Source: Pseudomonas sp. BN102 (GTDB taxonomy: Bacteria; Pseudomonadota; Gammaproteobacteria; Pseudomonadales; Pseudomonadaceae). From it: 47,897 nt of DNA. Positions within the stretch are counted from its first letter, which is position 1, and each line of letters opens with the position of its first letter. The position numbers and the translations under genes were made by a program. The notes beneath the pieces were generated by a model. The model was not told the origin of the DNA. It saw nothing but the letters and a program-made list of their open reading frames with translations, and searched no databases. The stretch covers positions 1-47,897 of the forward strand of contig NZ_SSON01000066.1 of NCBI RefSeq assembly GCF_029871245.1, in the 5' to 3' direction. Below, piece after piece: positions 2,408-34,471 of this stretch.

Positions 2408-2714
2408 ACAGGAAGGCTCGCGGGGCCTCCACCCAGCGCGGCGGCCAAATGGAAACCGTCTTTGTTGGCTTTGAGGGGTCAAGACCCTCTGCTCCGGACG
2501 AAGAAAAGTGCCGACATCTAGTGGTGGCCGGCCACAGCGATCGATGCGGCTAGCCACTCGGTTAAATGGCAAGCTCGTAGCTCAAGCAACAGCTGATGTA
2601 CCGACACTCACGCTATTGGGCATACTCGATTGGCCTGAGGATCGCCAAGAATGGCCCGTGTCCTCTACAACAATCACAAATCCTGAAAAGGGATGGGCAG
2701 CAGAAGGAGCAGGG

Positions 2715-3518
2715 ATGGGCGTATTCACTCCCGCCGGAGAAACACGTGTCGCGGTCCTGGTCGACTGCGACAACGTATCTCCCGAGATTCTGGAACACGC
2801 GCTGCGTGTCGTTGCCCAGTTTGGACGTGTGGTGCTCCGCCGGGGATATGGCAACCACGGAACACTGGCCAACAAATGGCAGGAGGCACTAGTGCGCTTG
2901 GCCTTCACGCCATGCCTTCAGTACCAGTACGCAGCGGGTAAGAACACTTCGGATATTGCGTTGGCGCTCGATGCCCTCGAAGCGCTCTTCGACCATCGAG
3001 TCGACACTTTCTGCCTGGTCACCAGCGACTCGGACTTTGCCTACCTCTGCCGCAAGCTTCGTGAGCGGGGCGCCACGGTCTGCATTGTCGGTGAGTCCAA
3101 GACACCTGCCGCACTTCGCAACGCCAGCGATCAGTTCTTCGAATGGAGTCGTGACGAGCACGCCGAAGAACCCGCGGAGCAGACCGAGAAGACTGCCGCC
3201 AAGCCTGACGCCAACCTGAAGACCGACCCCGCCAAGCCCGACCCCGCAAAGCCTGCCGTCAAACGCAGACCGAGGTTCGTCTTGGATGCAGTGTCCTTGC
3301 TCGCTGCCAGAACCAGCGAGGGCAAGGTCACCTTGAGCGCCCTGGGGCAATACCTTAAACGAACTGATCCTGCTTTTTCGCCCAGCGCATTCGGCCACTC
3401 GGGCCTGCTCGACATGATCAAAACCTATGACCTGCTGCAGCTTGTCCAAGAAAGCGGTGGGCACTGGAGCGTGAGCCTGGCCGCCCGCGAAGAAGCCGCG
3501 CCCGAAGTGATCAATTGA
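2715..3518 (+). CDS. NYN-domain (PIN-like RNase) protein with C-terminal OST-HTH/LOTUS-like domain
   Basis: A 267-aa protein. Residues about 10-145 form an NYN/PIN-like nuclease domain: VAVLVDCDNVSP supplies the first Asp cluster, TSDIALALDALEAL the second, and LVTSDSDFAYL the third, the metal-binding pattern of LabA/MARF1-type RNases. A low-complexity linker with repeated DPAKP and many Glu/Lys follows. The C-terminal about 75 residues (FVLDAVSLLAAR onwards, ending GGHWSV) resemble an OST-HTH (LOTUS) RNA-binding domain, a common partner of bacterial NYN domains. The start was placed at 2715 because AAGGAG lies 5 bases upstream and the family's first strand follows at once; the frame is open further upstream but lacks a good site. 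RNA targets are unknown. Confidence 0.82.
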   Translation: MGVFTPAGETRVAVLVDCDNVSPEILEHALRVVAQFGRVVLRRGYGNHGTLANKWQEALVRLAFTPCLQYQYAAGKNTSDIALALDALEALFDHRVDTFCLVTSDSDFAYLCRKLRERGATVCIVGESKTPAALRNASDQFFEWSRDEHAEEPAEQTEKTAAKPDANLKTDPAKPDPAKPAVKRRPRFVLDAVSLLAARTSEGKVTLSALGQYLKRTDPAFSPSAFGHSGLLDMIKTYDLLQLVQESGGHWSVSLAAREEAAPEVIN

Positions 3519-7097: not shown

Positions 7098-7176
7098 ATG
7101 GCAATCTCGGGATAGGCGGCTTCGTGCCAATCATCCATGGAAGGGCCTGTGGAAGGCTCGCGAATAAGGAAAAGAG

Positions 7177-8064
7177 ATGCATCTGTTTGTTTTTGGGCAG
7201 GAGTATGAAAGGTCTCGTCTACTTGAATTCATTGGCAGTCGCCAAATGCAATCAGGTGTCCTATGGGGAAGCAAAGAGCCAGGATGCCTGGTTTGTACAT
7301 CCGGCGGGAAGGGAGGCAAAAGGGCGGGATACTCGGATGAACTGCTAGCCGATGGGAGCTGGTGGTATTTCGGGCAAGGGCTGGTAGGAGACCAGTCACT
7401 GACAAATGCAGCCAATGCAAAGATTTCATCTGGGAAACTGTCTGTGCTGTTCTTCACGACACGGGAGCCTACGGCACGAGAGGTTGCGGCCCGAGGCGGA
7501 TACGGAAAGCTTTTCTCATTTCGGGGGGAATTCAACGTCGTCGGTTTCGAGCCGTTCGTACCCAGTGATGGCAGTCGAAAGGGGGACAGGCTATGGCGGT
7601 TCCGCCTGGCTCCTGTTGGAGGTGACGGCGACTACTGGGCTGGACAGGACGATATGCACAAGGATGGCGATATCGACCTGCAGGAAATGCAGCGACGTCT
7701 AAGCACGGGTCCCATTGGAACTGAGCTCGGCAGTAGCTTGCAGGAGTACCGGCAGCGTAGTGCTGCGGTGCACCTCTACGCGACTCTACGGGCCAATGGC
7801 CAGTGTGAGGGCTGTAACCTGCCTGCTCCTTTCTCTCGCCCTGATGGTCGGGCCTTTCTGGAAGTGCACCACATGACCCGACTTGCCGATGATGGTCCCG
7901 ACATGCCCGCCAACGTCGCGGCCCTCTGCCCGAATTGTCATCGTCGTGCCCATTACTCCTCTGACCGGAAGGAGTTCGGTCGTATCCTTCAAGAGCGAGT
8001 TACCCTCCTAGAGCAGCGAATCGTTGTAGGGCAAGGATTTCGTCAATCTGGAATAAGCAACTGA
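7177..8064 (+). CDS. HNH endonuclease with SRA-like N-terminal domain (McrA-like, modification-dependent restriction candidate)
   Basis: A 295-aa protein. Residues about 20-100 (SGVLWGSKEPGCLVCTSG ..., then GYSDELLADGSWWYFGQG with later VGDQSLTNAANAKI) match the pattern of the SRA-like 'specificity head' found fused to HNH domains in McrA-type enzymes, which read modified bases or phosphorothioate. The C-terminal HNH nuclease is clear: CEGC (about 210), LEVHHM (about 228) and CPNCHRRAHY (about 250), giving a zinc-supported beta-beta-alpha-metal site. It probably cuts DNA carrying foreign modification. It must tolerate the C5 methylation made by the nearby methyltransferase, which bears on its target. 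ATG preceded by AAGGAAAAGAG. Intact. Confidence 0.78.
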   Translation: MHLFVFGQEYERSRLLEFIGSRQMQSGVLWGSKEPGCLVCTSGGKGGKRAGYSDELLADGSWWYFGQGLVGDQSLTNAANAKISSGKLSVLFFTTREPTAREVAARGGYGKLFSFRGEFNVVGFEPFVPSDGSRKGDRLWRFRLAPVGGDGDYWAGQDDMHKDGDIDLQEMQRRLSTGPIGTELGSSLQEYRQRSAAVHLYATLRANGQCEGCNLPAPFSRPDGRAFLEVHHMTRLADDGPDMPANVAALCPNCHRRAHYSSDRKEFGRILQERVTLLEQRIVVGQGFRQSGISN

Positions 8065-8180: not shown

Positions 8181-9131
8181 TTAGGGTAGTTTTCCATCTA
8201 GAAAGGTAACTAGTTCACTCATCTCTCGTAGGATTTCGATGTGCCTAGCGAAACCTCTTCTTATATCAGGGAAATCTCCGACCTTGATTTCGTCGCTTCC
8301 TCTTAGGGTCCAGCCGGATGTGTCCTGAGTTTCAAAGACATGACCGAGTATGTTCCGTCTTTTCAGGACCTCCCTGTCGTAATCGGCGCTAGATCGTCTC
8401 AATTCCCTAAGTCGATCAGTTTGGTCCTCATCCAGTCCGAAAACCTCTGCGCTATTGGCGGCTATTTGGGTTAGCCGGCGAAAGTGCTTGAATAGTTTCG
8501 TGCTATCTACTGCGAAGGTTGCAAAGCGATTCTCGATGTTTCCATCGATTGCGGCTGTATATCTTTCTCTTGATTGTTCTATAAATTCAATTACGTCGTT
8601 GTCGAGATCGGTTTTCTTTTCGGCGCACTTTTGACTACGAGCTGACATTGAAAGGATAGCTTGTTTCATTATCTCGTCGCATTCTGCTACCACCCTCATT
8701 GCTAAACCCCTCATTCCCGAAAGCCGGTTAAGAGATCGCGCTGTTTGATCTATTAGGGATCCGGCTCGCTCAATGAACCGCCGGCGAGCGCTGCAGTAGA
8801 CACCTTCTATTTCCTTGGCTGCCATTTTCTGGCGAAGCTCGTTTTCCTCAAGGCTTCCTGAGTAGAAAAGTATCGTGGTGGAGGGAAATAGTCTTCGGAC
8901 CGTTGGTGCTATTTCATCACCATCTTCGTCCTGCAATTTGTAGTCAAGTAAAATAATGTCGAAACAATGATAGAGCTCGTGGTTTTGGGCTAGCTCTTTT
9001 ATCCCCGCACTATTGGGGATTGTTTCTATGCGTGCCACAAAACCTGCGTCAAGGATGCGTCGACGAAGACTGTCCTCCTCTTCCTTGCTGAAAGAGTCTT
9101 CAATCCAAAGTACACCAATATCGAGATTCAT
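8181..9131 (-). CDS. Receiver-domain protein, last gene of the large minus-strand operon
   Basis: A 316-aa protein with an N-terminal response-regulator receiver fold: acidic pair Glu11-Asp12 in VLWIEDSF, phospho-acceptor Asp63 in IILLDYKL, and Ser91 in FYSGS. The conserved Lys expected after the fifth strand is not evident (the region reads CSARRRF), so phosphotransfer chemistry may be altered. The C-terminal about 190 residues are helical and unrelated to known output domains; no DNA-binding motif is seen. The start codon overlaps the stop of the upstream GHKL ATPase gene by 4 bases (ATGA), so the two are made together and probably form a signalling pair. The coding sequence is visibly AT-richer than the operon's front half. 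Confidence 0.75.
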   Translation of the reverse strand: MNLDIGVLWIEDSFSKEEEDSLRRRILDAGFVARIETIPNSAGIKELAQNHELYHCFDIILLDYKLQDEDGDEIAPTVRRLFPSTTILFYSGSLEENELRQKMAAKEIEGVYCSARRRFIERAGSLIDQTARSLNRLSGMRGLAMRVVAECDEIMKQAILSMSARSQKCAEKKTDLDNDVIEFIEQSRERYTAAIDGNIENRFATFAVDSTKLFKHFRRLTQIAANSAEVFGLDEDQTDRLRELRRSSADYDREVLKRRNILGHVFETQDTSGWTLRGSDEIKVGDFPDIRRGFARHIEILREMSELVTFLDGKLP

Positions 9132-11455
9132 TCTTTCTCCCCGGGAATCGTAATCTCAAAGTCTGCTCGGCTTCCATCACCCACGAGCTCGATAGATCCG
9201 CCCATGTTTTTGATGATCTGGCTTACACTATAGAGTCCTATACCTGTACCGTTGGCTGAACCGGTATATCCTCGCTCAAAAATCTTGGAGGAATCGACTT
9301 TCCTCTCATCAATACCTAGCCCATCATCGCTTACAAGGATTTTTATGGAGCTCTTTGTTTTCTTGACTACTTTTAATTCTAGTTTTCTGGCTTTGGCTTT
9401 TCGTGCATTATCTAATAGGTTGTCAACAAGTACTGCGATATCAACAGGGGAGAAATCTCTAAACAACGACTCTCCTGAACCATCGAAAATGGCGCGAGGT
9501 ATTCCCGGCATCCCCGCTAGCCGAACATCAAAGTACTCATCCAAAAACTGCACCAGATCTCCGTGGACTTTATCGGTCTGAAGGTCTACCCGAATGTTGG
9601 GGGCGAAAGATAGAACTGTGCTCAATCTGTCACCCGAAAGAGTTGCGCTAGCAATAGATGCGGATGCACGCTTCGTTGATTGGCGTATAGACGCTAGTAG
9701 ATCTTCTATATCGTCAGGGTTATCTAGTCCCTCATCCGGCATTTTTGCTGTCGAGAGGATGTTTCGAAGCTCATGGGCAGAGTTGGCGATTGCAGAGCGT
9801 ATATGCCCAAGATGGATAATTGCCTGGTGCATTAGCAGTTGAACGCGCTCTACATCAACATCCTGACTGCTGCCCAGAAAGGCTGCCTGTTGCTCTAGCC
9901 TTGCGATATGAGCGTCTGCGCGATTTCGGTCCTCTATTGCGCGCTGCGCAATTTCTCGTGCTTCTTCTCTAGAAGCTCTTAGCTCGACGATTCGCTTTTT
10001 AGCTTCGTCAATTTGAGCGCGGAGAGAGGTGTCACCCTGATTCTCCGCAACTTCTGACATCGTTTTGAGCACTTCGTCCGTGATCTGGTCGGGGTCTTCC
10101 GAGACTTGAAGAATATCTTTGTCGTAGTAAAGGATTTCGATGTCCTTTGATCTCGCGAGTGCTCCAATGATATTTAGAATTCTTTCTCGTGATCTGTCCG
10201 TTTCCAAGCGCTCAGGGGTGTCTTTGTCCTGATCGATCTTGTCTTGCCAGTTGACGCCGACAACATAACGTTCTAGTCGGAAAATCATGTGTCGGCGTAT
10301 TGCTTCGAATAGCGCGCGGCTGCGTGCGTCCTCTACTAGCCCGGCATCCCTGCTTGAAACTTCTCGGAATGTTTTGGGGCGTGCTATTACGTCGACGCGC
10401 CCTATGATATCCCGCGTGCCTAGATAGCGCGATTGTCCCTGTTGTTTTCTGCGATTCAGTCCCAGCGTGTCATCATATTCTTCTCCGATGGGATAAATGC
10501 GGAATCTGTTCAGAAAAAGAAATACGCTACCGAATTCGATAGGTCTAACACCCATTCGGAGGGTGAAGGTTTGCTTTGCCGATCTATTAAGATAATAAAT
10601 TTCGCCTGTGACTCGGCTTTCGTCGAGCTCGCTATACGGAGAGGGTTCCTTTATCGAGTATATTTTTCTTCCGCGGTCAATCAGGGTACTCTCAATGATT
10701 GAGTTCTCGATCGAGACTACGATGCGACTAGTCTTTTCTTGCAGGAGCTCTGCAATCTCGTTTCCGATAGGGCCGTCGACGTTTTCAATGGCCTTGTCGG
10801 AGCCATCTATCAGCCAGGTGGATACAGAAACATGAGTGGTAGTGCCGAATGGGTCAATTAGCTTGGCGAGGTCTCTCCGGAGCCTGCTAATGCTTTCTTC
10901 GTCCCAGTGGTGTCGTGTGTTCTTGATTAAAAGTACTGTGCCATGTGGGGATGGCGCATTGGCATTGTAGATGTCAGGGAAGGACTTTGCCTTTTCTAAG
11001 CGAACAGGGATTTTTTGAAATTCTTCGGTGCTGTCTTTCTCAAATTCTGTCCAGTCTATTTTTAGTTTGGAGATGAATTTTTCACTCTCTGCTAAGCTAT
11101 ATAGTTCTAGTTGTTCCCCTAAGGTGTCGCACGCGAAGCGGCCGATACCTTTGCTTCCTGCAAATTGACCAGCTGGCTTGATCTTATCTCGGTATGTCCC
11201 TGATTCTGCTATGGCCTTCTCAGAGTAGGCAACAAAAAGCCATTTATTTGTGATGTCATCCCGCGACATTCCATGGCCGTTGTCTACTATAGCTATTTGT
11301 TGTTCTTCAGGGTCAAATTCGATATCTACTTTTGTTGCGCCAGCATCAAAAGAATTTTTTACAAGCTCGAAAATGGCAACGAACTGATTTGTTACTAAAT
11401 CTCGACCAATTATATCCTTTAGGTACGAGCTGATTCGGAATACACCCTCGGTCAT
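9128..11455 (-). CDS. MORC/MutL-like GHKL ATPase fused to histidine-kinase-like C-terminus
   Basis: A 775-aa protein with two GHKL sites. The N-terminal one has Glu30/Asn34 in FELVKNSFDAGAT, the DNGHGMS loop (about 58-64) and GSKGIGRFA (about 100-107), the pattern of Hsp90/MutL/MORC ATPases, including the 'paraMORC' group described in bacterial restriction-like operons. A coiled coil follows (about 470-530), then an H-box-like helix (NSAHELRNIL). The C-terminal histidine-kinase ATPase has N-box LLDNARKAKA (about 680), DDGLGID and GTGIGLYS (about 736). This suggests a DNA-clamp-like ATPase that can also phosphorylate or signal to the coupled receiver protein. Its ATG lies 174 bp after the vsr stop; that gap could hold an internal promoter. 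AT-rich compared with upstream genes. A defence role is inferred from the operon. Confidence 0.75.
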   Translation of the reverse strand: MTEGVFRISSYLKDIIGRDLVTNQFVAIFELVKNSFDAGATKVDIEFDPEEQQIAIVDNGHGMSRDDITNKWLFVAYSEKAIAESGTYRDKIKPAGQFAGSKGIGRFACDTLGEQLELYSLAESEKFISKLKIDWTEFEKDSTEEFQKIPVRLEKAKSFPDIYNANAPSPHGTVLLIKNTRHHWDEESISRLRRDLAKLIDPFGTTTHVSVSTWLIDGSDKAIENVDGPIGNEIAELLQEKTSRIVVSIENSIIESTLIDRGRKIYSIKEPSPYSELDESRVTGEIYYLNRSAKQTFTLRMGVRPIEFGSVFLFLNRFRIYPIGEEYDDTLGLNRRKQQGQSRYLGTRDIIGRVDVIARPKTFREVSSRDAGLVEDARSRALFEAIRRHMIFRLERYVVGVNWQDKIDQDKDTPERLETDRSRERILNIIGALARSKDIEILYYDKDILQVSEDPDQITDEVLKTMSEVAENQGDTSLRAQIDEAKKRIVELRASREEAREIAQRAIEDRNRADAHIARLEQQAAFLGSSQDVDVERVQLLMHQAIIHLGHIRSAIANSAHELRNILSTAKMPDEGLDNPDDIEDLLASIRQSTKRASASIASATLSGDRLSTVLSFAPNIRVDLQTDKVHGDLVQFLDEYFDVRLAGMPGIPRAIFDGSGESLFRDFSPVDIAVLVDNLLDNARKAKARKLELKVVKKTKSSIKILVSDDGLGIDERKVDSSKIFERGYTGSANGTGIGLYSVSQIIKNMGGSIELVGDGSRADFEITIPGEKE

Positions 11456-11629
11456 TTGCTGTTCGTCCTGTTCTGCTACCTATGCTTGTAGGGGTAAGCC
11501 ATTGGTTCGAAATCGCTTGAGGTAACGTGGTTGAATGAGCTTTCTATATAGATTTCGAGTGACTGTTTGGGGGCTGCAGCCACACTGCGCATGGCAATGA
11601 ATCCCATCTGGCACCGTGCTGATCTAATT
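11456..11629. other. 174-bp gap inside the minus-strand operon
   Basis: No gene is visible. Read on the minus strand it contains an AT-rich CTATATAGA segment about 100 bp before the GHKL ATPase start that could serve as a -10 element, but no convincing -35 was found. The base composition changes across this gap, so the GHKL-receiver pair may have been joined to the operon separately. Confidence 0.3.
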
Positions 11630-12079
11630 TCAGTTAATATTCAATGCCTTTCTCTGGTCGAGTTGGCGGATCACCTCATGTAATCGTTTGCCAGTTGCCT
11701 GCGCTTTCTTAGCAGATGCCAGTTCGCACTCCCACACGACAAGTACCGTCCACCCCAGAACCTGCAGGTCTGCTGCTGCTTGTGCATCACGAGTAACATT
11801 TTTCTCGAACTTCTCCAGCCAGAACGGCGTGTTGCTCTTGGGTGTAGTAGCAATCTTACAACCAGAGTGGCGGTGCCAGAAGCAACCATGTACGAAGACT
11901 ACGGCCTTGTAGCGTGGGAACACGAGGTCTGGCTTGCCGGGTAGTCCCGCGCCGTGTAGCCGGTATCGAAGTCCAAGTCCATGGAGGACCTTGCGTAGCG
12001 CAAGTTCTGGTTGGGTGTCCTTGCCCCTTATGCGTGACATCCTGTCCGAGCGTTCTGCGGGGGAAAGGAAGTCAGTCAT
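11630..12079 (-). CDS. vsr: Very short patch repair (Vsr) endonuclease
   Basis: A 149-aa Vsr-family protein. The fold's key segments are present: SRIRGKDTQPELALRKVLH at the N-terminus, PDLVFPRYK with catalytic Asp51, and HGCFWHRHSGC with His64/His69/His71 and zinc-site cysteines. Vsr nicks beside T:G mismatches that arise when 5-methylcytosine deaminates, so it normally accompanies a C5 methyltransferase; one is encoded at the head of this operon. It follows the giant ATPase gene by 45 bp on the same strand. Length is normal and the gene is intact. In R-M-like operons Vsr may be repair only, or may have become a nuclease of the complex; its separation from the methyltransferase by three large genes is unusual. 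Confidence 0.92.
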   Translation of the reverse strand: MTDFLSPAERSDRMSRIRGKDTQPELALRKVLHGLGLRYRLHGAGLPGKPDLVFPRYKAVVFVHGCFWHRHSGCKIATTPKSNTPFWLEKFEKNVTRDAQAAADLQVLGWTVLVVWECELASAKKAQATGKRLHEVIRQLDQRKALNIN

Positions 12080-12124
12080 TGGTGGCCTCTTTGCCCGGCC
12101 CGCGGTGGCAGGGCCGGGCCTTGG

Positions 12125-15100
12125 TCAGGCTTGGTTGGTGAGTTCGAAGAAAGGTAGTCCCCGTATGACCTCGCCAGCCACGTCGAACGACTTGTAGAGG
12201 CAATGGTGGTTGGGAAGTGTCTTCACTCGCTCCGATAGCTCTGCCAGATCCGACGTAAATCCAAGTACCCCAAGCTCAGCAGGAGTGGCATTGGGTACCT
12301 TGTGGATGAACCAGGTCAGAAGTGGTTCCCGGTAGTCGGTTGCCCCGGCCTTGAAGTGCCGTAGGTACTGCGAGGCTAGGATAACACCCGTCCCGAACTC
12401 GCGGCCCTGCAGTAGCAACTTGCGGAGCACGTCGAATTCATAACGCATGATGTTGTCCGCCTCGTCTACCAACAAGTACGAGTCGATGGCCCGGAGCTGT
12501 GGGGAAGAGCCAATGAAGGGGCGCTTCGGAGTTCGGAGCATATTCTCGTAGAACATGTTCAGCATGATGGCGACGAGCATGTTCTTGCTCCGATCGTCCT
12601 GCCCCATGGAGTCCAAGGAGACCACCACGACGCCATCAAGGAATTCGTCGAATGGCTTCGTTTCCCCTGTGCGCGCGAAGACTTCCATGTCAACGAGGTC
12701 GTCGATGATAGCCATCGGCGAGTCTGACTTCCCGGCGAGTAGCTCGCGATACTCCACGTGGATGTCGTAGATCGTTGGCTGGCGACCTTGCGCACCGGCT
12801 GTCTCGTAGGCGTTGCGGACGGCACCCTTGAGCTTGTCCCGCTGTACGGGACCGATGCCGGAGTACACCTTGTCCAAGACATCGGCGAAGAAGCGGAACC
12901 TGTCCAGCCATGGAGCGGAGGACTCTCCCATCCCCGTCGTGTCGAAGAGGTTCAGGGGCAGGCGATAGGGCTTTACCACCTTGGCGCCTGTGGCATCGAC
13001 AAAGTCCTGGCTGCTGTAGTCTCGCTTGTAGTCGAAGATCAGGAACCGAGGCGTGATACCTCGGTTTGCCTCGCGCGCCCTGGAGATCTGCAGGATCAAC
13101 GATTTGAGGAACTGGGTCTTGCCTGTCCCGAGGTCGCCAACGACACCGATATTCAGTTGGTTGAGCCGAGTGTCGGATATGTTCAGGGAGAATGGTCGGG
13201 GCTCGAAGCCATCGACGGTCTTGCCAACGGACAAGACGATCCCATTGCCTGGAGCATCGGTCTGACTGGCAGGGATTGGCCCCGGCTCCTCAACACCGGC
13301 GGAGGGCTCCTCGACAATCGCGGCGGCGGACTCGGAGATATCCTCCACTGGAGCTATCGTTGGCTCGCCCGTTTGACTGTCGTCCGGAGGGGGGCTTTCG
13401 ACTTGCGCGAGTGGGGTGCCAACTGCATCTGCCCGGGAGGGCAGCAGTCCCCAGTCGCCGACCTTCGCGCGCGCAGAATCGTAGAACGACTGTGCGTCAT
13501 TTCCGGCGATGATGCGGCCTGCATCCTGGCTGGAGATGACGATGGTCTCTGCGTACTTGTCGCCATCACGGTCGTGCGGGCCGCTCTGGGTCGATGCATC
13601 CACCACGATCAGTCGTCCCCTCGCATCGATGCTGATCGATGGGGCGGGGCTGAGGATGGCTGCAGCGATACGCTCGTGGTAGCTAGCCCACCGCCCGGCT
13701 TGTCCTTCTACTGCTTGGTGCTGGCTGTAGACACGCAGTCCAAAGCCGATCATGGAAAGTAGCAAGTGCTGGAAGGCAAGTCGCCATGCCAGGGAGCTGC
13801 CTGCACGCTCCTCGATGGCGCGAAGCAGTGCCGATAGGGCCTTGGCTTGGGAGAGTGCCTCGGCGGAGTCGCTTGCACTGAAGACAATCCCTTGCCGGCA
13901 CTTGACCTCAATGGGGGTAAGGTGCAGTTGGACCTTGTCGTTGCATGCTCGTACCCCGACGACAAGTAGGTCTGGACGCGATAGGGACGTGTCCTTGCGT
14001 TCCTTGCCGAGGGAGCGGGCAAGGTCGGAAAGGTAGCCTCGGAAAGGGTCGACGGGAATGATGATGGCTATCGTCGAGTCGTCAGGCGTGCCTGCAAGGA
14101 CAGGGAGCAGACTTTCCAGGTTGCCTGCCACGCGGAACTGGTCTTGGAGGAGCCGGACTGCGAGGAACAGGCCAAGGTCGCCTGTGGCCCCGGTGTCGTC
14201 CCCGGAAAGGCCGCGCACGGTGGGGATCCCCCTTCTTGCAACCTCGAGGAGGATTTGCTCGACCTGATCATCGTCTAGACCTTCGCAGCCTGGCAGGAGC
14301 TTCAGGACCCGCCGGAGCGCATCGCGATCAGCCTGCTTGACCTGCGACAAGAGGTAGTAGCCACTGGTATCGCCTGCGCGGTGGGAGTAGGAGGGCAGGT
14401 CGTAGTCCCATAGGTAGGTCCCCTGGATCCAGCCTCCCAGGAAGCAGGCGGGGTCGATTGCCGAGGAGGAGACTGCGACGAACCCGGCGCTGTTTTCCTC
14501 AAGCATGCTGGAGACCGCATGGACATTTGGGGAAAACTGCAAGCCGACCTTGCCGTCCCTCAGCTTTTCCAGCATGAGCATGCATGCGGATACCTTGTCG
14601 GCGAATCGTTCGCCAGACAGTGGCATTTGCAGGCCTTGCCTGGACTCGCTCAGGAACGAGGCCTGTAGTTGGCGCCTGACTCGGTGTCTGATCAGGCCGC
14701 CAGTCCCCATCGGAGAGAGCATGCCGACTTCCTTGGACTCGGGTTGTGCTGAGTCCAGCTGCGCAATGATGCCCAGGTCAGGCTTGGCCCCGGCTGGTTG
14801 CTTGTCGTACCAGCGGACATGGTTATCGGTGTCTTCGGACAGGTTGGCGATCGTCGCCTGGTCGGGCCTTCCTGCCTGCCTGGTATCGAATACCTCCAGT
14901 ATCCTCGCACCGACACTGTGTCGCGGGATGTCCTGCTCCCCGTTGCCGAATCGCTTGGTACACCAGTTGGCTAGGCCCTCGTTGCACGCATCGGTGGTTC
15001 CGCCCGCGCTGGACACCACCAGGCTGACAATGGGCTTGGCCGCCAGCAAGTCCGTGACATCATCGAGTGCGCGCGAGACCTGGGCCGGACTGAATCCACT

Positions 15101-17623
15101 CGATATCCCGCCGACCGTAAGGCCAAAACTGTTGTCGAAGGGCGCCCGGCGGGCACGGTCGGGAATCTGGCCTAGACGAGATCCGTTCCAAAGCACGGAC
15201 CAGTAGTCGGAGCTGCACTCGACCGAGAGGAAGTCCAGGCTGTCTTCCCCATCGGGTGCCTGCAGGAACATGGTCAGCAGATCGGGGACACAATCGGGGT
15301 CAAGGATACTGGCTGCAGGGCACGGACAGGCGGAGTCACCTTCAACCTCGTCCCGCAATACTTTCTGGGCAAGGCAGTGCCATGCAAGGCGCAACGGATG
15401 CAGGGGGGAAAGAATGATGGCGTCCGGGATCCTGTCCAGCGTGCGGCCATCAGCTTCCAGCGAGCACACGACGATGGTATCCACCCAGCAGGCGATGGAT
15501 GGATCGGCGTTCACCCATGCCATGTATGAATCTAGGTAGTCTTCGACAAGAGAGCGGAACCCAGTGTCGCCGGACAGCCAGGCGCCTAGCGACGCGGATT
15601 CGAGGAGTCCCGACTGGTCGTCACTGCCCCGTATGTACCGTGCGATCTCCTGGCGTGCCTCGATAAAGCCTCTTGGAGGCTGGAAGCGCGTGGCCTGGGG
15701 GCGGGGATCATGCAGGAAGCGGCCTTGCGAGAGTATGGGACCATGGGGGGCGTCCCACTCGGGGGGGGCCCACCGGGACGCGTAGTCGTCCGCGATCACC
15801 AACGGCCTGAAAGAGTTCGCCGCATTCTGTTCCTCCAGCATCCATGACTGCAAACTGGATGCGCGGGAGTTCCGGTCGAGATGGACCACGGTCTTGGTGT
15901 CGAATTTCTCGAGATGCCGGCGATTTAGTTTGATAAGCCGCTCGAACTCGCTACGGCAGCCTTCTTCCTTTGCCTCCTCGCAAGCCAAGTAGACCCTGCA
16001 GGCCGTGGGACCTTGCTCGCCAGCTAGCGTGAAGGCGATGTCCAACTGGTACTTTCCGTCGGCCTCGACTTCCAGCAGATACTCGTCTTCTCCAACTGGC
16101 CTCGCCTCGATCTCCTGCCTCTGTGCCTCGAGCTCGGTGGCGTCGTCTGGCAGCCCTTCTACCTTCCCGATGCATGCTCCTGGCGACAGGTGAATGCGCA
16201 GTTCATAGCGACCGGATCCTGGTAGCGACAGGGCGGTCTCCCAGTCCAGGTCCGTGGACTTCTTGCGAGGTTTTTTCGGCGGTGAAAGCTTCGTCGCGAG
16301 CCTGCAGGTAACGAGTATTCCAGGCCGCCAGCTCATGAGGGAGATCACCCGGACACTTGCTGGCTTGCATCCATCGGCGATGACTTTGTATGCCATCGGG
16401 GCCCTGTGGGAGGGTGGAAACAGGTCGGATTGGAGAGTGGTGTCGCTACCGTTTGCTAGCAATGGCGTAGCCGCCTTGCCATAAGAACCGCCCGTCAATT
16501 GGTACTCTTGCGGTTCGTAGCCTTCGCTAGTCGAGATAGCCAGCTCGACCTTGTCTCGTACCACTGCCGGCATTCCCTTTCCCATGGGAACAATGCCATT
16601 GGTGCACTGGATAGTTATTTCCCCAACGGCCTCGTCGGCTTCGTCGGCAAGCAGTTCAGTCCAGCATTCGGCTGTGAGGGTTGTCCACCAGGAGGGTGGG
16701 GGCGTCAATTCTGCATCAGCGCTGGGCAGGTAGAAGGCCTCGGTTGCGCGTTCGAAGGCAGTGGGTATGTCGCAATTCGATTGGAGATGGACAAGGAAGT
16801 CGCGCAGGGCCTGTGTTACTTCTTGCGGGGCGCTTTGTGCCATGCGCTCGATGCCAGTCTTGAAACCATCTGCGAGCTCGTCGGATATCCTCCCTAGTAT
16901 GTAGGTCTGCGTCTTTGACGAGATCCTGCCGTCCTCCGTTGGGGGAAGGCCACATGCCAGGGAGAGTGCTTGTCCTGCGGAAAGTCCGTGAGCCATGTTC
17001 GCTATCGAATAGATACGCGACAGCAAGCGCCAGGCGGCGCGATGACCACCTTTGTCTGGGTCCACCTCGTCGACCGAACCGGCGGCGGCACGAATCAATG
17101 CCTTGGCATCTTCCCGCTGCGATGGATCTAGACCTGCTACAAGCAGCGCCTCGTTAACGGCTTGCTGGACAAAACCGTCCTCCCACCATTGCTCAGAGGA
17201 TGCATGCCCCGTACTCGTAGCGGTCCCCAGTCCGAACTCGTCGGTCGTGGACTCGATCGACAAGTTGTTGTGCAGCCCCGGTGGGACCAAAGCGACGAAG
17301 CTGGGATTAACGGGGTCGTTGCGGACATCCAGCAGGTGGTCGTTGTCACACTTGCCAGACTGCCCGATCCGGGGCTTGGGTCCCTGCAACTGGTTAGCCG
17401 GGTACTGGAGCAGTACCGGCAGCGTTGCCATGCTACCGTCCAAGCTGCCCTGGACGTGGATTCCTCCATCCTGTGCCAATTCGTCGTAGGCCAGCTCGAG
17501 GATCTCGAGAGGCGGGCCACGGAAGATCAGCCGGTACTCGAGGTTGGCACCGCTGTACCCTTGCGTCGCCCCCAGGACCTTCTCATGGACAATTGTCGCG
17601 AGCCAGTGTGCAAGTTTATTCAT
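12125..17623 (-). CDS. Giant HerA/FtsK-type ATPase with embedded PD-(D/E)XK motif (DptH-like)
   Basis: An 1832-aa protein. The C-terminal third is a HerA/FtsK-type motor: Walker A GDLGTGKTQ (about residue 1500), Walker B YLLVDEADNIM (about 1719), and conserved SQYLRHF further on. Around residues 1217-1241 a restriction-endonuclease-like site is visible: RPDLLVVG followed by TPIEVKCRQG (D ... E-x-K). A Pro/Glu-rich linker (about 1400-1460) separates nuclease and motor; the N-terminal 1200 residues are unrecognised. Size, domain order and position after an ATPase and a mid-size unknown gene resemble DptH of the phosphorothioation-linked DptFGH restriction complex. ATG overlaps the previous stop by 8 bp. 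Probably translocates on DNA and cuts it. Confidence 0.72.
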   Translation of the reverse strand: MNKLAHWLATIVHEKVLGATQGYSGANLEYRLIFRGPPLEILELAYDELAQDGGIHVQGSLDGSMATLPVLLQYPANQLQGPKPRIGQSGKCDNDHLLDVRNDPVNPSFVALVPPGLHNNLSIESTTDEFGLGTATSTGHASSEQWWEDGFVQQAVNEALLVAGLDPSQREDAKALIRAAAGSVDEVDPDKGGHRAAWRLLSRIYSIANMAHGLSAGQALSLACGLPPTEDGRISSKTQTYILGRISDELADGFKTGIERMAQSAPQEVTQALRDFLVHLQSNCDIPTAFERATEAFYLPSADAELTPPPSWWTTLTAECWTELLADEADEAVGEITIQCTNGIVPMGKGMPAVVRDKVELAISTSEGYEPQEYQLTGGSYGKAATPLLANGSDTTLQSDLFPPSHRAPMAYKVIADGCKPASVRVISLMSWRPGILVTCRLATKLSPPKKPRKKSTDLDWETALSLPGSGRYELRIHLSPGACIGKVEGLPDDATELEAQRQEIEARPVGEDEYLLEVEADGKYQLDIAFTLAGEQGPTACRVYLACEEAKEEGCRSEFERLIKLNRRHLEKFDTKTVVHLDRNSRASSLQSWMLEEQNAANSFRPLVIADDYASRWAPPEWDAPHGPILSQGRFLHDPRPQATRFQPPRGFIEARQEIARYIRGSDDQSGLLESASLGAWLSGDTGFRSLVEDYLDSYMAWVNADPSIACWVDTIVVCSLEADGRTLDRIPDAIILSPLHPLRLAWHCLAQKVLRDEVEGDSACPCPAASILDPDCVPDLLTMFLQAPDGEDSLDFLSVECSSDYWSVLWNGSRLGQIPDRARRAPFDNSFGLTVGGISSGFSPAQVSRALDDVTDLLAAKPIVSLVVSSAGGTTDACNEGLANWCTKRFGNGEQDIPRHSVGARILEVFDTRQAGRPDQATIANLSEDTDNHVRWYDKQPAGAKPDLGIIAQLDSAQPESKEVGMLSPMGTGGLIRHRVRRQLQASFLSESRQGLQMPLSGERFADKVSACMLMLEKLRDGKVGLQFSPNVHAVSSMLEENSAGFVAVSSSAIDPACFLGGWIQGTYLWDYDLPSYSHRAGDTSGYYLLSQVKQADRDALRRVLKLLPGCEGLDDDQVEQILLEVARRGIPTVRGLSGDDTGATGDLGLFLAVRLLQDQFRVAGNLESLLPVLAGTPDDSTIAIIIPVDPFRGYLSDLARSLGKERKDTSLSRPDLLVVGVRACNDKVQLHLTPIEVKCRQGIVFSASDSAEALSQAKALSALLRAIEERAGSSLAWRLAFQHLLLSMIGFGLRVYSQHQAVEGQAGRWASYHERIAAAILSPAPSISIDARGRLIVVDASTQSGPHDRDGDKYAETIVISSQDAGRIIAGNDAQSFYDSARAKVGDWGLLPSRADAVGTPLAQVESPPPDDSQTGEPTIAPVEDISESAAAIVEEPSAGVEEPGPIPASQTDAPGNGIVLSVGKTVDGFEPRPFSLNISDTRLNQLNIGVVGDLGTGKTQFLKSLILQISRAREANRGITPRFLIFDYKRDYSSQDFVDATGAKVVKPYRLPLNLFDTTGMGESSAPWLDRFRFFADVLDKVYSGIGPVQRDKLKGAVRNAYETAGAQGRQPTIYDIHVEYRELLAGKSDSPMAIIDDLVDMEVFARTGETKPFDEFLDGVVVVSLDSMGQDDRSKNMLVAIMLNMFYENMLRTPKRPFIGSSPQLRAIDSYLLVDEADNIMRYEFDVLRKLLLQGREFGTGVILASQYLRHFKAGATDYREPLLTWFIHKVPNATPAELGVLGFTSDLAELSERVKTLPNHHCLYKSFDVAGEVIRGLPFFELTNQA

Positions 17624-19160
17624 GTTCGGGGCTCTGGATGGCTTGGCTTACGGGGAAAGGAGGCAACAGCAACATGCCGCTCTCGGCATCGGGGCTGTCG
17701 AGCACGAGGCCGAGCATTCTCAACTGGTGACCTAGGTCGTTCCTGGCGATGTCATGCTTGTCCACGGCTATGCCATAGGCTTCGAGGTGCTGTCCTAGTC
17801 GGTGGACTGAGCGAGGACCGCCCATTCCAGCAAGAGAACAGTGGACCAAGGCAAGCACGGCGACGGGGCCAAGGGAGACGATCCACGGGCTGGACGGGCT
17901 GCTGCCTTTCTTCTTCAGGATGTACCCCTGGTCGTACCCCCTCAGCAGCGGGACCGCCGCCTGGCGCTGTCCAAGGACGTGCCGTGCGAACTCCAATAGA
18001 TTGGAGCCGATCCCCTTCTTGCAACGAAGCGCACGGCCCTCTTGCTCGCGTACGTCTGCAATTGTTTCTAGGGTTCCCAGATTGGCAAGCGCGGCCTTGT
18101 GCATGCGTACATGCTGGCAAAGCCCGGCAATACCGGCACTCGAGGAAAGATTTCCGCTGTAGGGGACACCTATTTGCTCTAGCGACCAAAGAAGGGCATT
18201 GGTCCCGAGCCGGGCATTGAGGTAACTGGAAACCTTGTCCTTGATTCCTTGGAGGGCCTTTCCCCCGTATGCCATGTACTGGGGGGCCTCAGGGAAGATA
18301 GCTTGCCTTGCTTCCTGCTCGCTGGAAGGGAGTGGCCCATCTGTAAGTGCGGCCGACAGGCAGGCCCAGATCCTCGCGTGGACATCGCACAGCCAGGTTA
18401 CATGGGACGCCGCCGCCAGGCGAAGTACTGCCTCCAGCAAACTGGTCCATTGCCGGCGGGTCATGGATCCCTTCGCCTGCATGATTGCATGCAAGTCCCT
18501 GGTGAATCGCCGAGCAGGCAGGAATGGGACTTCCTGGAAGTCTGGTTTCTCCAGTGTTGCGAATTCACTCTCTGGGATCGGGGACCAGTCCCAGTTGCCT
18601 GCCCCTGTGTTCCACGCCGATGTTTCTTGGTCGAGCCAACGGGCAAAGACATCGTCGTCGTAGTTGACACTCAACGCAGCGAAAAGGCTTTTCCAAAGTT
18701 GCTGCGCAGAATCTCTGTCCTTGGAGCCCAGGCAGACCATGCGGCGGATCAGGCTACCCGCAGGCCAAGAATTGCTGCTGAGTCGGGCAGACCCGGAGAA
18801 GAGTGCCGTTCCCGGCACGATGGGTGTGACCTGCAGGAACCGCTTGGAAGACTGGTTCGGAAGCTTGGGGCTCTCCAGGATTCCATGGAGGACGGTGTTC
18901 CAGGCCTCCACGTTGACTACAGCCCCGTTAGGTGGCGACTGGCGCCGTTCGCGGAGCTTCTGGATATTCTTGTCCAGATCGCGTCCGGCCTGTGGCACGC
19001 TTCCCTCGCTCGCCGAGGCATAACCTATGGTCCGGTAGAGCGAGGCCAGCAGGACCTCCGAACTTGCGTATTCCGGTGCCGGGCTAATTGCGAAGACTGA
19101 GTCCTGATAGCTGCCATGTGAAAAACGCCAGGGGGCCTGCCTGAACTCCGCGAGGCTCAT
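17616..19160 (-). CDS. Uncharacterised middle protein of the ATPase trio (DptG-like position)
   Basis: A 514-aa soluble protein without recognised motifs; it is mostly helical with several Trp-rich segments (for example TGAGNWDWSPIP). The ATG at 19160 was chosen because GGAGAGGG precedes it and it overlaps the upstream stop as ATGA; a longer in-frame start at 19196 lies inside the previous gene. Its stop overlaps the start of the giant ATPase gene. It lies between a P-loop ATPase and the HerA-like giant, as dptG does between dptF and dptH. Tight coupling on both sides implies a stoichiometric complex. Assignment as DptG-like rests on gene order only. Confidence 0.65.
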   Translation of the reverse strand: MSLAEFRQAPWRFSHGSYQDSVFAISPAPEYASSEVLLASLYRTIGYASASEGSVPQAGRDLDKNIQKLRERRQSPPNGAVVNVEAWNTVLHGILESPKLPNQSSKRFLQVTPIVPGTALFSGSARLSSNSWPAGSLIRRMVCLGSKDRDSAQQLWKSLFAALSVNYDDDVFARWLDQETSAWNTGAGNWDWSPIPESEFATLEKPDFQEVPFLPARRFTRDLHAIMQAKGSMTRRQWTSLLEAVLRLAAASHVTWLCDVHARIWACLSAALTDGPLPSSEQEARQAIFPEAPQYMAYGGKALQGIKDKVSSYLNARLGTNALLWSLEQIGVPYSGNLSSSAGIAGLCQHVRMHKAALANLGTLETIADVREQEGRALRCKKGIGSNLLEFARHVLGQRQAAVPLLRGYDQGYILKKKGSSPSSPWIVSLGPVAVLALVHCSLAGMGGPRSVHRLGQHLEAYGIAVDKHDIARNDLGHQLRMLGLVLDSPDAESGMLLLPPFPVSQAIQSPEHE

Positions 19161-21304
19161 ACTTCCCTCTCCTTGTCCGCGACGAAGCCGCTCCACGAGT
19201 GTCCTACGACCGTGCCGTCTGCTCCAACGCGGATCCTGGCGTCGTCGAGTAGCTCCCTGTCACGAACAATAGGGCCTGATAGACGAGCCTTAGTCGTATC
19301 GAGCAGTGCCACGACTGCACGTGGGAGGGAAGCAGGGGAGAGCCCCCTCTCGAGCTCCTTTACGGCCTTGAACAGGTCATAGGTCAGCGGAACGGGTTGG
19401 GCTGAACGGCCTTGACCTACCTTGAGGTAGCAGATCGGTGGGCGAGGGCGCCCGGCAGTGTCCTGAGCGAACATCTTTACCGGACTCTGCGGCACGACCA
19501 ATGTTGCCTGGCGCTGTCGAGGAGGAAGCGGCTGGCCAAAGGTGGTGGTTAGCGACACCTCGAATTCCTTGCCTGTGTTCAGCAGCTCCTTTACCTGCCT
19601 GACCACCTCATAGAGGTGCTGGTGCTTGTCGTTGTCCTCGACGACCTGCTGGAAAGCATGAAGGATCGAAGAGTCCGCCACAGCAGCTGTCCGGGGGCAT
19701 ATGCTTCTGCGAACCAAACGGCAGGCAAAGTCGCGAAGGATATGTTGGACCCGGCTAGCAGCCGCGGGCTTTTTACGCCGGACGATCGGCAGGGAAAGCA
19801 TGGAGTCTGCAGCGGAAAGTCGCTTGAGTATCTCCAGTTCGTTTGGTGAGAGCACCTGATACTTGCGGATAAACTCGATGCCGCCGGCAAGGGAGCGGCT
19901 GAAACGCATATCTAGGTCACCAAGCATGATCATGCTACGGCCGCTCACAGCGACCTCGCTGTCCGGACTCGCGAAAGCGGGATCCAGCGTGTCTACCAAT
20001 CCCTCCAGCAAGGGGGCGATGGTCGCAGGGAGATAGTGGCCCTTGCGTTCCGCCAGGAAATGGGCAAGACCCATTAGGGTCCGTACCTCCTCCGTACCTA
20101 GCTCCTTCTCGAGACCTAGCTCCTTGAGGTCGGTGCGGAGCGAGCCAGCCGTGCTCCTGTCCCATCGGTGGAAGAGTGCATGCTGGTAGCTCGACGTGGC
20201 CAGATGGAAGATTGCGGTGAGGGACTGCTTGGTATGCCTTGAGGCCGATCGGGCCTTTTGGTCGAGTTCGACAAGGTTTGCAGCCCATTGGCACGGAGTG
20301 GACTGGTGGGGATTTCCGGTGGATGCGTGGACTGCGGGATGGTGGCCAGCCAGCAAGTACGACGTCAGAGAAAAGAGGTCCCGGAAGCTCCATCTCTTGC
20401 CACTGGCTAGCTCATACCAGCGCAATATCTGCAGAAGAGCTGTCCTGTGTTCGTCCCGTGAGAGTATTGCCTGGCTGGCGCAGAACGGGCACTTGTCGCC
20501 CGCAGGGCATGTTCCCTTTGCTGGCCACATATCCGATGCAGTGGCTTGTCCGATAAGTATCTCCGCGGGCGCCTTCGAGTCATCGTCAGGCTTGACCAGA
20601 AGTGATTCTGCATCCATTGGCCAGACTGCAACGGATGGAAAACCTTCGAGAGGCCAGCATGAAGGGGCATCATGTGCCAGGCTAACGGCCCGTGTAATAG
20701 CTTCGAGCAGGGTGCGTGATTCGTCCAGATCGTTGTCTATGGCATGGATCAGGGCGTCATCAAGGACGCCGCGATTGACGCAGCAGAGGTAGGCCTGGGA
20801 AGACGCCCCGTCCAGAAGCTTGCTGAGTTCTTCTATTAGGAGGACTGGGGCGCTGCTTCCATCGTGCCCAGCCGTTGCGGAGGCATCCTGAACGATGTCC
20901 AGGCCCAGGTTGCTGGCAATACGGGCTAATTTCCCGGCGTCGGCTCTTGCTCGACGCGGTACTGCTGTTCCTGCAGGGGGATGGAAGGACTGCGTGAGCT
21001 CGTCGATCAATCGGCCATCACAACGGAGGCTTTCATCTAGCCAGCGGATAGTGGACTCGATGGCCTCGGTCTTTCCGTTTCCGGGGCCCCCCACCAGTAG
21101 GATGATTCTTGGGGTGCCGGCATTACCGGTGGGGAGCTCGTTGGTCCAGGCTTGGAGTCGCGAGAGGAGGTTTGTACGTAGCAGTTGTTTGTTCGGCTGG
21201 CCGCTGTTCTTGTCGAGTAGCCGCTTCACCCCCCCTGAGTGATGACCGGCCCAGTCGACCAGGGCGGCAGGGTAGCGCGAGCCTTCCTGTTGGGAGCTCT
21301 CCAT
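19157..21304 (-). CDS. P-loop ATPase with zinc-finger-like motif (DptF-like)
   Basis: A 715-aa protein. Walker A LLVGGPGNGKTEA lies at about residues 68-80, a hydrophobic strand ending in Glu-Glu (VLLIEELSKLL, about 150-160) is a candidate Walker B, and CPAGDKCPFC (about 265-275) looks like a small metal-binding knuckle. C-terminal helical regions follow. It comes 20 bp after the methyltransferase stop, with AGGAG/AAGGGA before its ATG, and its stop overlaps the next start (ATGA). First gene of the three-gene block ATPase - unknown - giant ATPase that parallels DptF-DptG-DptH. Probable role: a nucleotide-dependent switch or sensor in the restriction complex. It is longer than I expect for DptF, so this may be a distinct family. 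Confidence 0.7.
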   Translation of the reverse strand: MESSQQEGSRYPAALVDWAGHHSGGVKRLLDKNSGQPNKQLLRTNLLSRLQAWTNELPTGNAGTPRIILLVGGPGNGKTEAIESTIRWLDESLRCDGRLIDELTQSFHPPAGTAVPRRARADAGKLARIASNLGLDIVQDASATAGHDGSSAPVLLIEELSKLLDGASSQAYLCCVNRGVLDDALIHAIDNDLDESRTLLEAITRAVSLAHDAPSCWPLEGFPSVAVWPMDAESLLVKPDDDSKAPAEILIGQATASDMWPAKGTCPAGDKCPFCASQAILSRDEHRTALLQILRWYELASGKRWSFRDLFSLTSYLLAGHHPAVHASTGNPHQSTPCQWAANLVELDQKARSASRHTKQSLTAIFHLATSSYQHALFHRWDRSTAGSLRTDLKELGLEKELGTEEVRTLMGLAHFLAERKGHYLPATIAPLLEGLVDTLDPAFASPDSEVAVSGRSMIMLGDLDMRFSRSLAGGIEFIRKYQVLSPNELEILKRLSAADSMLSLPIVRRKKPAAASRVQHILRDFACRLVRRSICPRTAAVADSSILHAFQQVVEDNDKHQHLYEVVRQVKELLNTGKEFEVSLTTTFGQPLPPRQRQATLVVPQSPVKMFAQDTAGRPRPPICYLKVGQGRSAQPVPLTYDLFKAVKELERGLSPASLPRAVVALLDTTKARLSGPIVRDRELLDDARIRVGADGTVVGHSWSGFVADKEREV

Positions 21305-21324
21305 TCCCTTAGACTCCTATGCAT

Positions 21325-22794
21325 TCATGCGATGGCGATGTTTTCTTCTTCTTGCTCGAGCTCCGCAAGCTGTTTAGCTCGCTTCACGGCTTCTTCCAGC
21401 ATTTCCCTAATAGCCATGCCAATGGCCCGGGCTAGGTAGGGAGGCACAGCGTTGCCTACCTGGGTGTAGCGTGGGCACTCCTTTGTGCGCTGGCTGCCTC
21501 CGGTAGTGAACTTGCCGCGGAACCTGAACCAATCAGGGAACGACTGCAGGCGCGCGGACTCCCGGACGGTCAGTATCCTAGGTTCGTTATAGTGGAGGAC
21601 GTCATCCGGCAAGGTGGTGATCGTGGGGGCCGGTGCGCTAGCCTGCATCGGGTAGATGCGATGTTTTTTGAGCCCATATGCTTCGCGCAGCTCGGCGCTC
21701 ATGCGCACGCCCTTGGTGCAATTGGGATCATCGAGGATCTTCTGGAACCTAGCCTTGATCTCTGGCTTGTGCCTGGCAAGGCGCAGGCTATCGAGGGTGC
21801 CATCGCAGCCTTGGTGCATCAGTCTTTGGAACGCTGTGAGAGGACCAGCATAGTCAATCTCCTGGAACCCCTTTGGAGAGTCGAGATCCTCGCAGGGCTT
21901 GGTGCCATTACGCCCTATCTCTAAGTCTGAGATTGCATCCTCTGCGGGAATTTCGTTGTCTAGGCCGAGCTCGTGCAGCTGCTCGACCCGGGCTTTCTCC
22001 AAGAAGTCAAAGGCACTAGTCGTGCCTCTGTCGAGATGATAAGCCAGGTCCTTTCGGAGACCGATCACGATCAGGCGTGGTCGCTTTTGCGGAACCCCAA
22101 AAGTAGAAGAGTCGACAATCCTGCCAAGGACGTGATAGTCGATCTTGTCCAGGCTTTCGACCAGCTTGTCGTAATAAGACTGGGGCTTGACCGGGATACC
22201 AAGTTGCTTCCATACCTTTGTGGCGTGTGCGACTTTCATCCCCGGTACGTTCTCCAGGACAAGCGCTGCTGGTTGGATGGCTCTAACCATCTCCACGTAC
22301 TTCTCGAACAGCTTGTTGCGAGGGTCGGCCTCCTGTCGTCTCCCTGCGAAGCTGAATCCTTGGCAGGGGGGCCCACCCGCGAGTACATGGACTTTCCCTC
22401 GCAGGGACGCAAGCTCGTCGCCGTGCTTGTCCAGAATGTCATCAATTCCCCAGGCTTGCTTCTCTAGCCAGGAGGGCCAGGCGAATGGGGTGATGGGAAC
22501 ATCTTTTCGCTCAATCAGGTTCGTCGACAATGTCGAGAACGCCATCTTGTCGCGTTCTACGGCGAAAACGCCATTCAGCCCTGCGAGTGACAGGCCCAGG
22601 GATAGTCCACCGCATCCTGCGAACAGGTCGGCAAATTGAAAGGGCTGGGAGAGATCGGGGAGAGGTGGAAAATGCTCGATTTTCTTCATGGGCTCCTGCC
22701 CGGGGACGTCTGCGTCCAGAGGAAGGGGCCCCTGGCACGGTGCATTCTGGTTGCCTGCAAAGAAGCGCTCTTCGTGGGGAACTTCCGTCTCCAT
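21325..22794 (-). CDS. DNA (cytosine-5-)-methyltransferase, first gene of the operon
   Basis: A 489-aa C5 methyltransferase with the ordered motifs: I FADLFAGCGGLS (about 54-65), IV GGPPCQGFS with catalytic Cys144, VI ENVPGM (181-186), VIII QKRPRLIVIGL, IX RESARLQSFPDWF and X QVGNAVPPYLA. The target-recognition region lies between VIII and IX; the target sequence cannot be read from it. It transfers methyl from S-adenosylmethionine to cytosine and probably supplies the self mark for the modules around it. Vsr downstream fits 5mC chemistry. An alternative start at MKKIEHFPPL (36 residues shorter) is closer to the family's usual length. It is divergent from the NERD/DrmAB operon; in class 2 DISARM a C5 methyltransferase (DrmMII) is part of the system, so it may serve both. 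Confidence 0.93.
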   Translation of the reverse strand: METEVPHEERFFAGNQNAPCQGPLPLDADVPGQEPMKKIEHFPPLPDLSQPFQFADLFAGCGGLSLGLSLAGLNGVFAVERDKMAFSTLSTNLIERKDVPITPFAWPSWLEKQAWGIDDILDKHGDELASLRGKVHVLAGGPPCQGFSFAGRRQEADPRNKLFEKYVEMVRAIQPAALVLENVPGMKVAHATKVWKQLGIPVKPQSYYDKLVESLDKIDYHVLGRIVDSSTFGVPQKRPRLIVIGLRKDLAYHLDRGTTSAFDFLEKARVEQLHELGLDNEIPAEDAISDLEIGRNGTKPCEDLDSPKGFQEIDYAGPLTAFQRLMHQGCDGTLDSLRLARHKPEIKARFQKILDDPNCTKGVRMSAELREAYGLKKHRIYPMQASAPAPTITTLPDDVLHYNEPRILTVRESARLQSFPDWFRFRGKFTTGGSQRTKECPRYTQVGNAVPPYLARAIGMAIREMLEEAVKRAKQLAELEQEEENIAIA

Positions 22795-28042: not shown

Positions 28043-28044
28043 CC

Positions 28045-29856: not shown

Positions 29857-29869
29857 GGGGGGCAGTCTC

Positions 29870-32750: not shown

Positions 32751-32809
32751 GCATTCCTGTTGAGTGCGCGTGAGATTGAGGTATCAACATCCTCAACCCG
32801 CAAAGCGTT

Positions 32810-34450: not shown

Positions 34451-34471
34451 TTACATAGAACAAGGAGGGTC

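Follow-up and report, generated by a model that had tools for sequence, protein, structure and literature searches.

A DndFGH-type trio coupled to a C5 cytosine methyltransferase and Vsr in Pseudomonas sp. BN102: a likely methylation-gated restriction system

Introduction

Which mark tells a DndFGH-type restriction complex that the DNA before it belongs to the host? There is no settled account of how DndFGH discriminates self, in part owing to the sparseness of phosphorothioate and the frequent lack of modification genes. The question is raised anew by seven minus-strand genes of Pseudomonas sp. BN102, found in a 47,897-nucleotide stretch (the window) that is part of contig 66 in a 6.48-Mb genome. 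The genes encode a C5 cytosine DNA methyltransferase (MTase), three proteins designated F, G, and H, a Vsr endonuclease, a GHKL-type protein, and a receiver protein (Table 1). We consider it likely that this cluster encodes a restriction system: the methyltransferase would mark the host DNA, and unmarked DNA would be attacked by a divergent complex of the DndFGH/SspFGH type. The system is real and conserved and, as a set, apparently undescribed: no account of a C5 methyltransferase-DndFGH-like-Vsr system was found in the literature searched, whose scope excluded subscription papers and preprints.

The F-G-H trio

By sequence and structure comparison, the trio is of DndFGH-type make-up. H carries paired β-sandwiches (residues ~330-552), a PD-(D/E)XK nuclease (~1216-1241), and a HerA motor (1484-1828), the last of which matches the PADLOC DndH model at 4.7e-69 and DptH (PDB 7es4) at 4.5e-47. 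Structure comparison identifies the two tandem β-sandwich domains of H, a DndH trait, and the DndG fold in G. The H residues R1216-P-D1218, P1237/E1239/K1241, the Walker A GKT (lysine K1502), and D1720-E1721 are invariant in 43/43 aligned rows; in F, both the Walker A motif and Cys266/272/275 (numbered as in the PA7 locus, L014) are invariant in all 42. Profile-profile comparison with hhalign relates F to SspF-like proteins (6.2e-7) and, over collinear stretches, to DndF (2.7e-4 and 3.1e-3), while the nuclease segment of H scores 1.1e-6 against SspH-like and 1e-3 against DndH proteins. DndF itself is a P-loop NTPase with an enlarged lid and a C-terminal α+β domain.

These methods were used because the hidden Markov models of PADLOC, Pfam, and NCBIfam failed with F, G, and most of H. 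Neither F nor G matches any model of PADLOC-DB 2.0.0, those for Dnd, Dpt, and Ssp included (up to E 1), or any Dnd/Dpt model in NCBIfam; for H, no Ssp model in PADLOC matches at E 1, and HMMER recognizes only the HerA domain. A HMMER profile built from H residues 330-1480 had matches in 2 of 398 genomes; the remaining genomes in which the DndH profile matches gave none. The DptF model TIGR03238 matched four of 274 genomes, only one of them over the cut-off and that one a fragment, and within the genus the DndH model matched 1 of 18 genomes, namely the window's own. A structure search with the middle of H gave no methyltransferase or restriction-enzyme fold among the matches listed, a result that is uninformative because β-sandwich matches filled the lists. 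The first-pass annotation, made from the sequence alone, had related the trio to DptFGH. A relationship is detectable and the link is real, but it is weaker by plain sequence than had been implied: HMMER recovers the HerA part of H and misses F, G, and the remainder of H.

Recurrence of the five-gene core

When genome contigs were scanned once with H, 42 loci were obtained, which were picked by exact peptide words and are hence fairly close relatives (53-96% in the best segment, fragments apart). Three are contig fragments without F, leaving 39, all of which keep the F-G-H order. All 39 also contain a C5 methyltransferase, directly upstream of F in 37 and, as a divergent enzyme (30-33% identical), downstream of H in L005 and L013; homologues of the trio that consistently occur without the methyltransferase were not what this survey returned. 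In 33 of these loci Vsr is the next gene after H, and in L005 it follows the methyltransferase. It was not found in L010, L013, L027, or L043 within the DNA examined, and the L008 stretch ends 0.9 kb past H. As a matter of genetics, then, Vsr belongs to the system, as had been proposed, and the core is five genes: MTase, F, G, H, and Vsr.

The arrangement recurs in alpha-, beta-, and gammaproteobacteria and is therefore not due to chance. In six further loci (L056, L060, L064, L070, L072, and L073), a C5 methyltransferase match adjoins the trio in every case, though weakly in L064 (178 bits). In L056, H is split into two open reading frames (ORFs), the methyltransferase is downstream, and the stretch has no Vsr match. 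Since L056 and L064 are distant (H ~31% identical) and also carry a C5 methyltransferase, the link between trio and methyltransferase is old. For the dnd genes the survey was negative: DndB, DndC, DndD, and DndE, as well as DptF, DptG, and the first 1300 residues of DptH, had no tblastn match in 48 loci, using a single query set from L059 that did match the DndFGH control locus L061. At the genome level (the window's own genome and 38 of the 39 trio genomes, that of L033 being left out), DndC exceeded the cut-off in 1/39, and two more had weaker matches.

Viral contigs contain one locus with the five-gene core, and phage records gave two matches, both unannotated "Bacteriophage sp." fragments. 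One of the two, MT836308.1 (L071), holds a trio of DndFGH size, which was classed as DndFGH on gene lengths and gene order only. Its H-like protein aligns to residues 1218-1811 of H, including the nuclease (tblastn 1e-49). Separately, the contigs from Solimonas variicoloris (L026) and Bordetella hinzii (L033) show equal rounded identities to the window in every core gene; this near-identity suggests recent transfer or an assembly mix-up.

The methyltransferase, Vsr, and the proposed mechanism

The PPC and ENV motifs of the methyltransferase are invariant in 41/41 aligned rows, so that the trio has what methylation-gated restriction calls for, a linked methyltransferase with intact catalytic motifs. 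Vsr residues D51, H64, H69, and D98 are likewise invariant in 26/26 rows; tblastn matched Vsr in 35 loci, and the 26 rows are those whose ORF passed length and overlap filters. Across 22 loci, the distances of F, G, and H correlate pairwise with Pearson coefficients of 0.96-0.98, and the three proteins thus diverge as a single unit, as expected of a complex. Between the window and Pseudomonas aeruginosa PA7, the trio is 96-97% identical, whereas MTase residues 241-360, which we take to be the place of the variable recognition part in such enzymes, drop to 57-62%; this region varies more than the MTase core across the loci as well. Most simply, what the trio recognizes would be the mark, or else whatever the methyltransferase produces, and not a fixed site. 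This favors a DndFGH-type engine restrained by 5-methylcytosine (5mC), with Vsr mending deamination damage.

Such a system may work as follows. G, through its DndG fold and winged helix, and the β-sandwiches of H would hold DNA, and F would bind or hydrolyze nucleotide and sense or license attack. H would translocate along DNA by its HerA motor and cut or nick at the PD-(D/E)XK site, with 5mC at the methyltransferase's sites keeping the complex off; the putative function is phage defense. Vsr would repair the T:G mismatches left at methylated sites by deamination of 5mC. The paraMORC/histidine-kinase protein and the receiver, as a putative HEPN RNase, could serve as a backup that stops growth once the first line fails.

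Alternative explanations

Several observations weigh against gating by 5mC or against the DndFGH assignment on which it draws. The distances of the methyltransferase follow those of the trio less tightly (0.69-0.75), as do those of Vsr (0.65-0.68), and the correlation between Vsr and methyltransferase is only 0.38, which argues against close tuning of Vsr to each enzyme's site. With hhalign, whose pairwise E-values here are based on one to five template sequences, the G profile finds nothing in DndG (0.86) and a weak similarity in SspG (0.0055); with whole-length H, the matches weaken to 0.28 (nuclease to DndH), 0.34 (region 597-669), and 0.081 (nuclease to SspH), and the N-terminus matches DndH at 4.1e-4 with the whole alignment but at 0.45 with residues 1-400 alone. 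This N-terminal match is the signal observed for the SWI2/SNF2-like domain at the N-terminus of DndH, which also has TRDs and an inactive adenine-methyltransferase domain. Linkage, moreover, need not mean gating, because DndFGH itself is often unlinked to any modification; separation of DndFGH from its modification module is reported to be common (PMC10853773).

The trio could thus be a standalone DndFGH-like machine that ignores 5mC, with the methyltransferase and Vsr either a linked solitary pair or the property of the DISARM-like neighbors. The looser co-divergence of these two proteins with the trio is in keeping with this, as is the position of the DrmA/DrmB homologues, which are encoded on the plus strand from ~2 kb away onward; class 2 DISARM uses a C5 methyltransferase. 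We nevertheless regard this explanation as unlikely, given the C5 methyltransferase in 39/39 trio loci. DISARM as the methyltransferase's owner was rejected, since none of the seven DISARM-side proteins had a tblastn match in the 42 loci and the methyltransferase thus travels with the trio; PADLOC also scores it 254 as a type II methyltransferase versus 158 as DrmMII.

A second possibility, advanced in the first-pass annotation, is that the GHKL protein and receiver are a core switch that turns the nuclease trio on and off. The pair does lie immediately downstream on the same strand in the window and in PA7. The GHKL-type protein is present, however, in only seven of the 39 trio loci (L003, L006, L012, L014, L021, L028, and L034; truncated in L003 by the end of the examined stretch), with the receiver adjoining it in six by tblastn and in all seven by profile. 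Position and strand of the pair vary among these loci, and a second C5 methyltransferase stands beside it in L012, L028, and L034. In 30 of the 39, the available DNA extends 5 kb or more upstream of F and 8 kb or more downstream of H, so that over this distance the pair is for the most part truly absent from the other loci. Among 398 genomes searched, the receiver was found in two more, both lacking the trio in the DNA at hand: L080 has methyltransferase, GHKL, and receiver in a row with no trio within 19 kb, and L079, a 4.9-kb contig without the trio, has a methyltransferase, the receiver, and a piece of the GHKL gene. A core switch is therefore decidedly improbable, and the proposed control of activation is not supported; the pair is a separate module joined to the operon end in the window.

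Opposite gating, with the complex or a partner nuclease attacking methylated DNA or 5mC recruiting the complex in a type IV or SspE-like manner, is very improbable: the Ssp system does contain mark-activated effectors (PMC8092258) and the adjoining HNH gene matches type IV models, but FGH complexes, which the trio resembles, are described as acting against DNA without the modification (PMC12707154), and the host DNA would itself bear the trigger mark.

The receiver protein

The receiver domain is recognized by PF00072 at 2.4e-5, below the gathering score, and a seven-row profile of the protein matches solved response regulators in the PDB (best 1.1e-5); D12 and D63 are present. In the helical C-terminal part, R259-N260-x-L262-x-H264 is invariant in 7/7 sequences and in all of the 120 listed matches among 729 relatives found. 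This pattern is typical of HEPN RNases, whose motif is of the RN(x)3-5H type and lies in an all-helical domain. The motif points to an effector, and the protein probably ends in a HEPN RNase. Pfam and PDB profile searches show no HEPN domain (in the PDB search, the receiver half matched receivers only and the helical half gave nothing convincing), and the assignment is for that reason a lead.

Relationship to known systems

As in DndFGH/DptFGH, the window system consists of three co-transcribed genes, of which the first encodes an NTPase, the second a DndG-fold protein, and the third a giant nuclease-HerA protein, with a homologous HerA, and H follows the published DndH order of β-sandwich pair, nuclease, and HerA (PMC10853773). 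It differs in the absence of dndBCDE from the 48 loci (by tblastn), in its fixed C5 methyltransferase and Vsr partners, and in that F and G go unrecognized by DptF/DndF or DndG models. SspFGH is closer by profile for F and for the H nuclease than DndF and DndH are; here, however, a methyltransferase takes the place of SspABCD (sspABCD was not searched for), and PADLOC gives no Ssp match. The HerA domain of H also matches mad8 of MADS in PADLOC (7.8e-12). MADS and other such HerA systems use an adenine methyltransferase with a specificity subunit, unlike the cytosine methyltransferase of the window. Two other loci illustrate the range of this group. L066 (genome G314) encodes SspF-like and mad7/SspG-like proteins, an N6 methyltransferase, an S subunit, and a HerA protein, an analogous layout and an adenine counterpart of the window system; in L065 (genome G526), NERD, protein kinase, and SspF-like domains are joined in one protein, and SspG-like and HerA/SspH-like proteins come next.

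A modified cytosine that replaces phosphorothioate by way of cytosine methylases has been proposed for the CxC/DndE systems, but that proposal concerns the DndDE modification core and not FGH (PMC10853773). The accessory pair resembles HEF_HK/Response_reg_2, in which a protein with HATPase_c_3 and HATPase_c and an adjacent receiver occur near C5 methyltransferases and Vsr; the word HEPN is absent from the text of that paper (PMC8011034). The window pair has no Pfam match to PF19191 or PF19192 (HEF_HK and Response_reg_2) up to E 1. MORC/paraMORC restriction-modification operons likewise combine GHKL ATPases, cytosine methylases, and Vsr, but they are described with SFII helicases, and the text of the paper contains neither HerA nor a receiver (PMC2292703).

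Gene layout and neighborhood

Table 1. Genes of the operon and its surroundings in the window
Gene or cluster	Coordinates	Strand	Description	Match
MTase	21325..22794	-	C5 cytosine DNA methyltransferase, 489 residues, first gene	PF00145, 1.4e-54
F	19157..21304	-	P-loop NTPase with C/C/C motif, DndF/SspF-like, 715 residues	Walker A, hhalign
G	17616..19160	-	DndG-fold protein, 514 residues	
H	12125..17623	-	DndH-like, 1832 residues: paired β-sandwiches, PD-(D/E)XK nuclease, HerA motor	
Vsr	11630..12079	-	T:G mismatch endonuclease, 149 residues	TIGR00632, 3.7e-44
GHKL	9128..11455	-	Accessory paraMORC-type protein, 775 residues: N-terminal HATPase_c_3, C-terminal histidine-kinase-type HATPase_c	5.4e-28, 3.8e-22
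Receiver	8181..9131	-	Accessory protein, 316 residues: receiver domain, then helical C-terminal part with HEPN-like motif	
HNH	7177..8064	+	HNH protein, convergent with the operon	Type IV restriction models, 5.1e-17
563-residue protein	5439..7130	-	No family match	
NYN	2508..3518	+	NYN and OST-HTH/LOTUS protein	NYN, 6.4e-31
DISARM-like cluster	23227..36250	+	Divergent DISARM-like genes	DrmA, 1.7e-183; DrmB, 2.2e-70
Transposase	45932..46810	-	Integrase core	rve, 1.4e-17

All seven ORFs of the operon are present with the spacings claimed for them in the first-pass annotation, and its family calls (C5 methylase, Vsr, dual HATPase, receiver, HerA) were borne out by matches, that of the receiver being weak. 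From the coordinates, MTase and F are 20 bp apart, F/G and G/H overlap by 4 and 8 bp, H and Vsr are separated by 45 bp and Vsr and GHKL by 174 bp, and GHKL/receiver overlap by 4 bp. The length of G is counted from an internal ATG; the mechanical ORF has 526 residues from a GTG at 19196. No promoter or terminator was found in the Vsr-GHKL interval, which is uninformative at chance expectations of 0.9 and 0.5. Among 665 relatives of H is a P. aeruginosa protein with 97% identity, and all seven genes recur as an array in the PA7 genome, with H 96% and MTase 77% identical.

Beyond DrmA and DrmB, the DISARM-like cluster includes a NERD-helicase-like protein, a UvrD-like protein, a 567-residue protein without a Pfam match, and the PDC-M61A/M61B candidate defense proteins. 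None of its seven proteins matches a methyltransferase model, five having been scanned with Pfam or PADLOC only. The HNH protein has relatives adjacent to the corresponding system in L003 (64%) and L039 (71%) and, in part, in L022; a methylation-sensing nuclease adjoining a 5mC writer is a curious arrangement. Distant relatives (21-24%) of the 563-residue protein occur near the trio in L012, L029, and L064. The transposase is a sign of a mobile or invaded island.

Implications

We incline somewhat to the fuller view that these loci form a distinct clade of 5mC-gated DndFGH-type machines, with Vsr as the dedicated mark-maintenance partner and, in some members, a plugged-in, kinase-controlled receiver-HEPN RNase as a suicidal second line. 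If so, the receiver-HEPN protein would represent an uncommon phosphorelay ending in an RNase. As 5mC is common and easily mapped, gating could be tested with ordinary methylases and with bisulfite or nanopore sequencing. Machines of this kind have until now been known chiefly from systems with a sulfur mark; the coupling of the trio to a C5 methyltransferase suggests that an ordinary methyl mark can serve them equally, and FGH would then be a restriction engine of general use, compatible with more than one mark.
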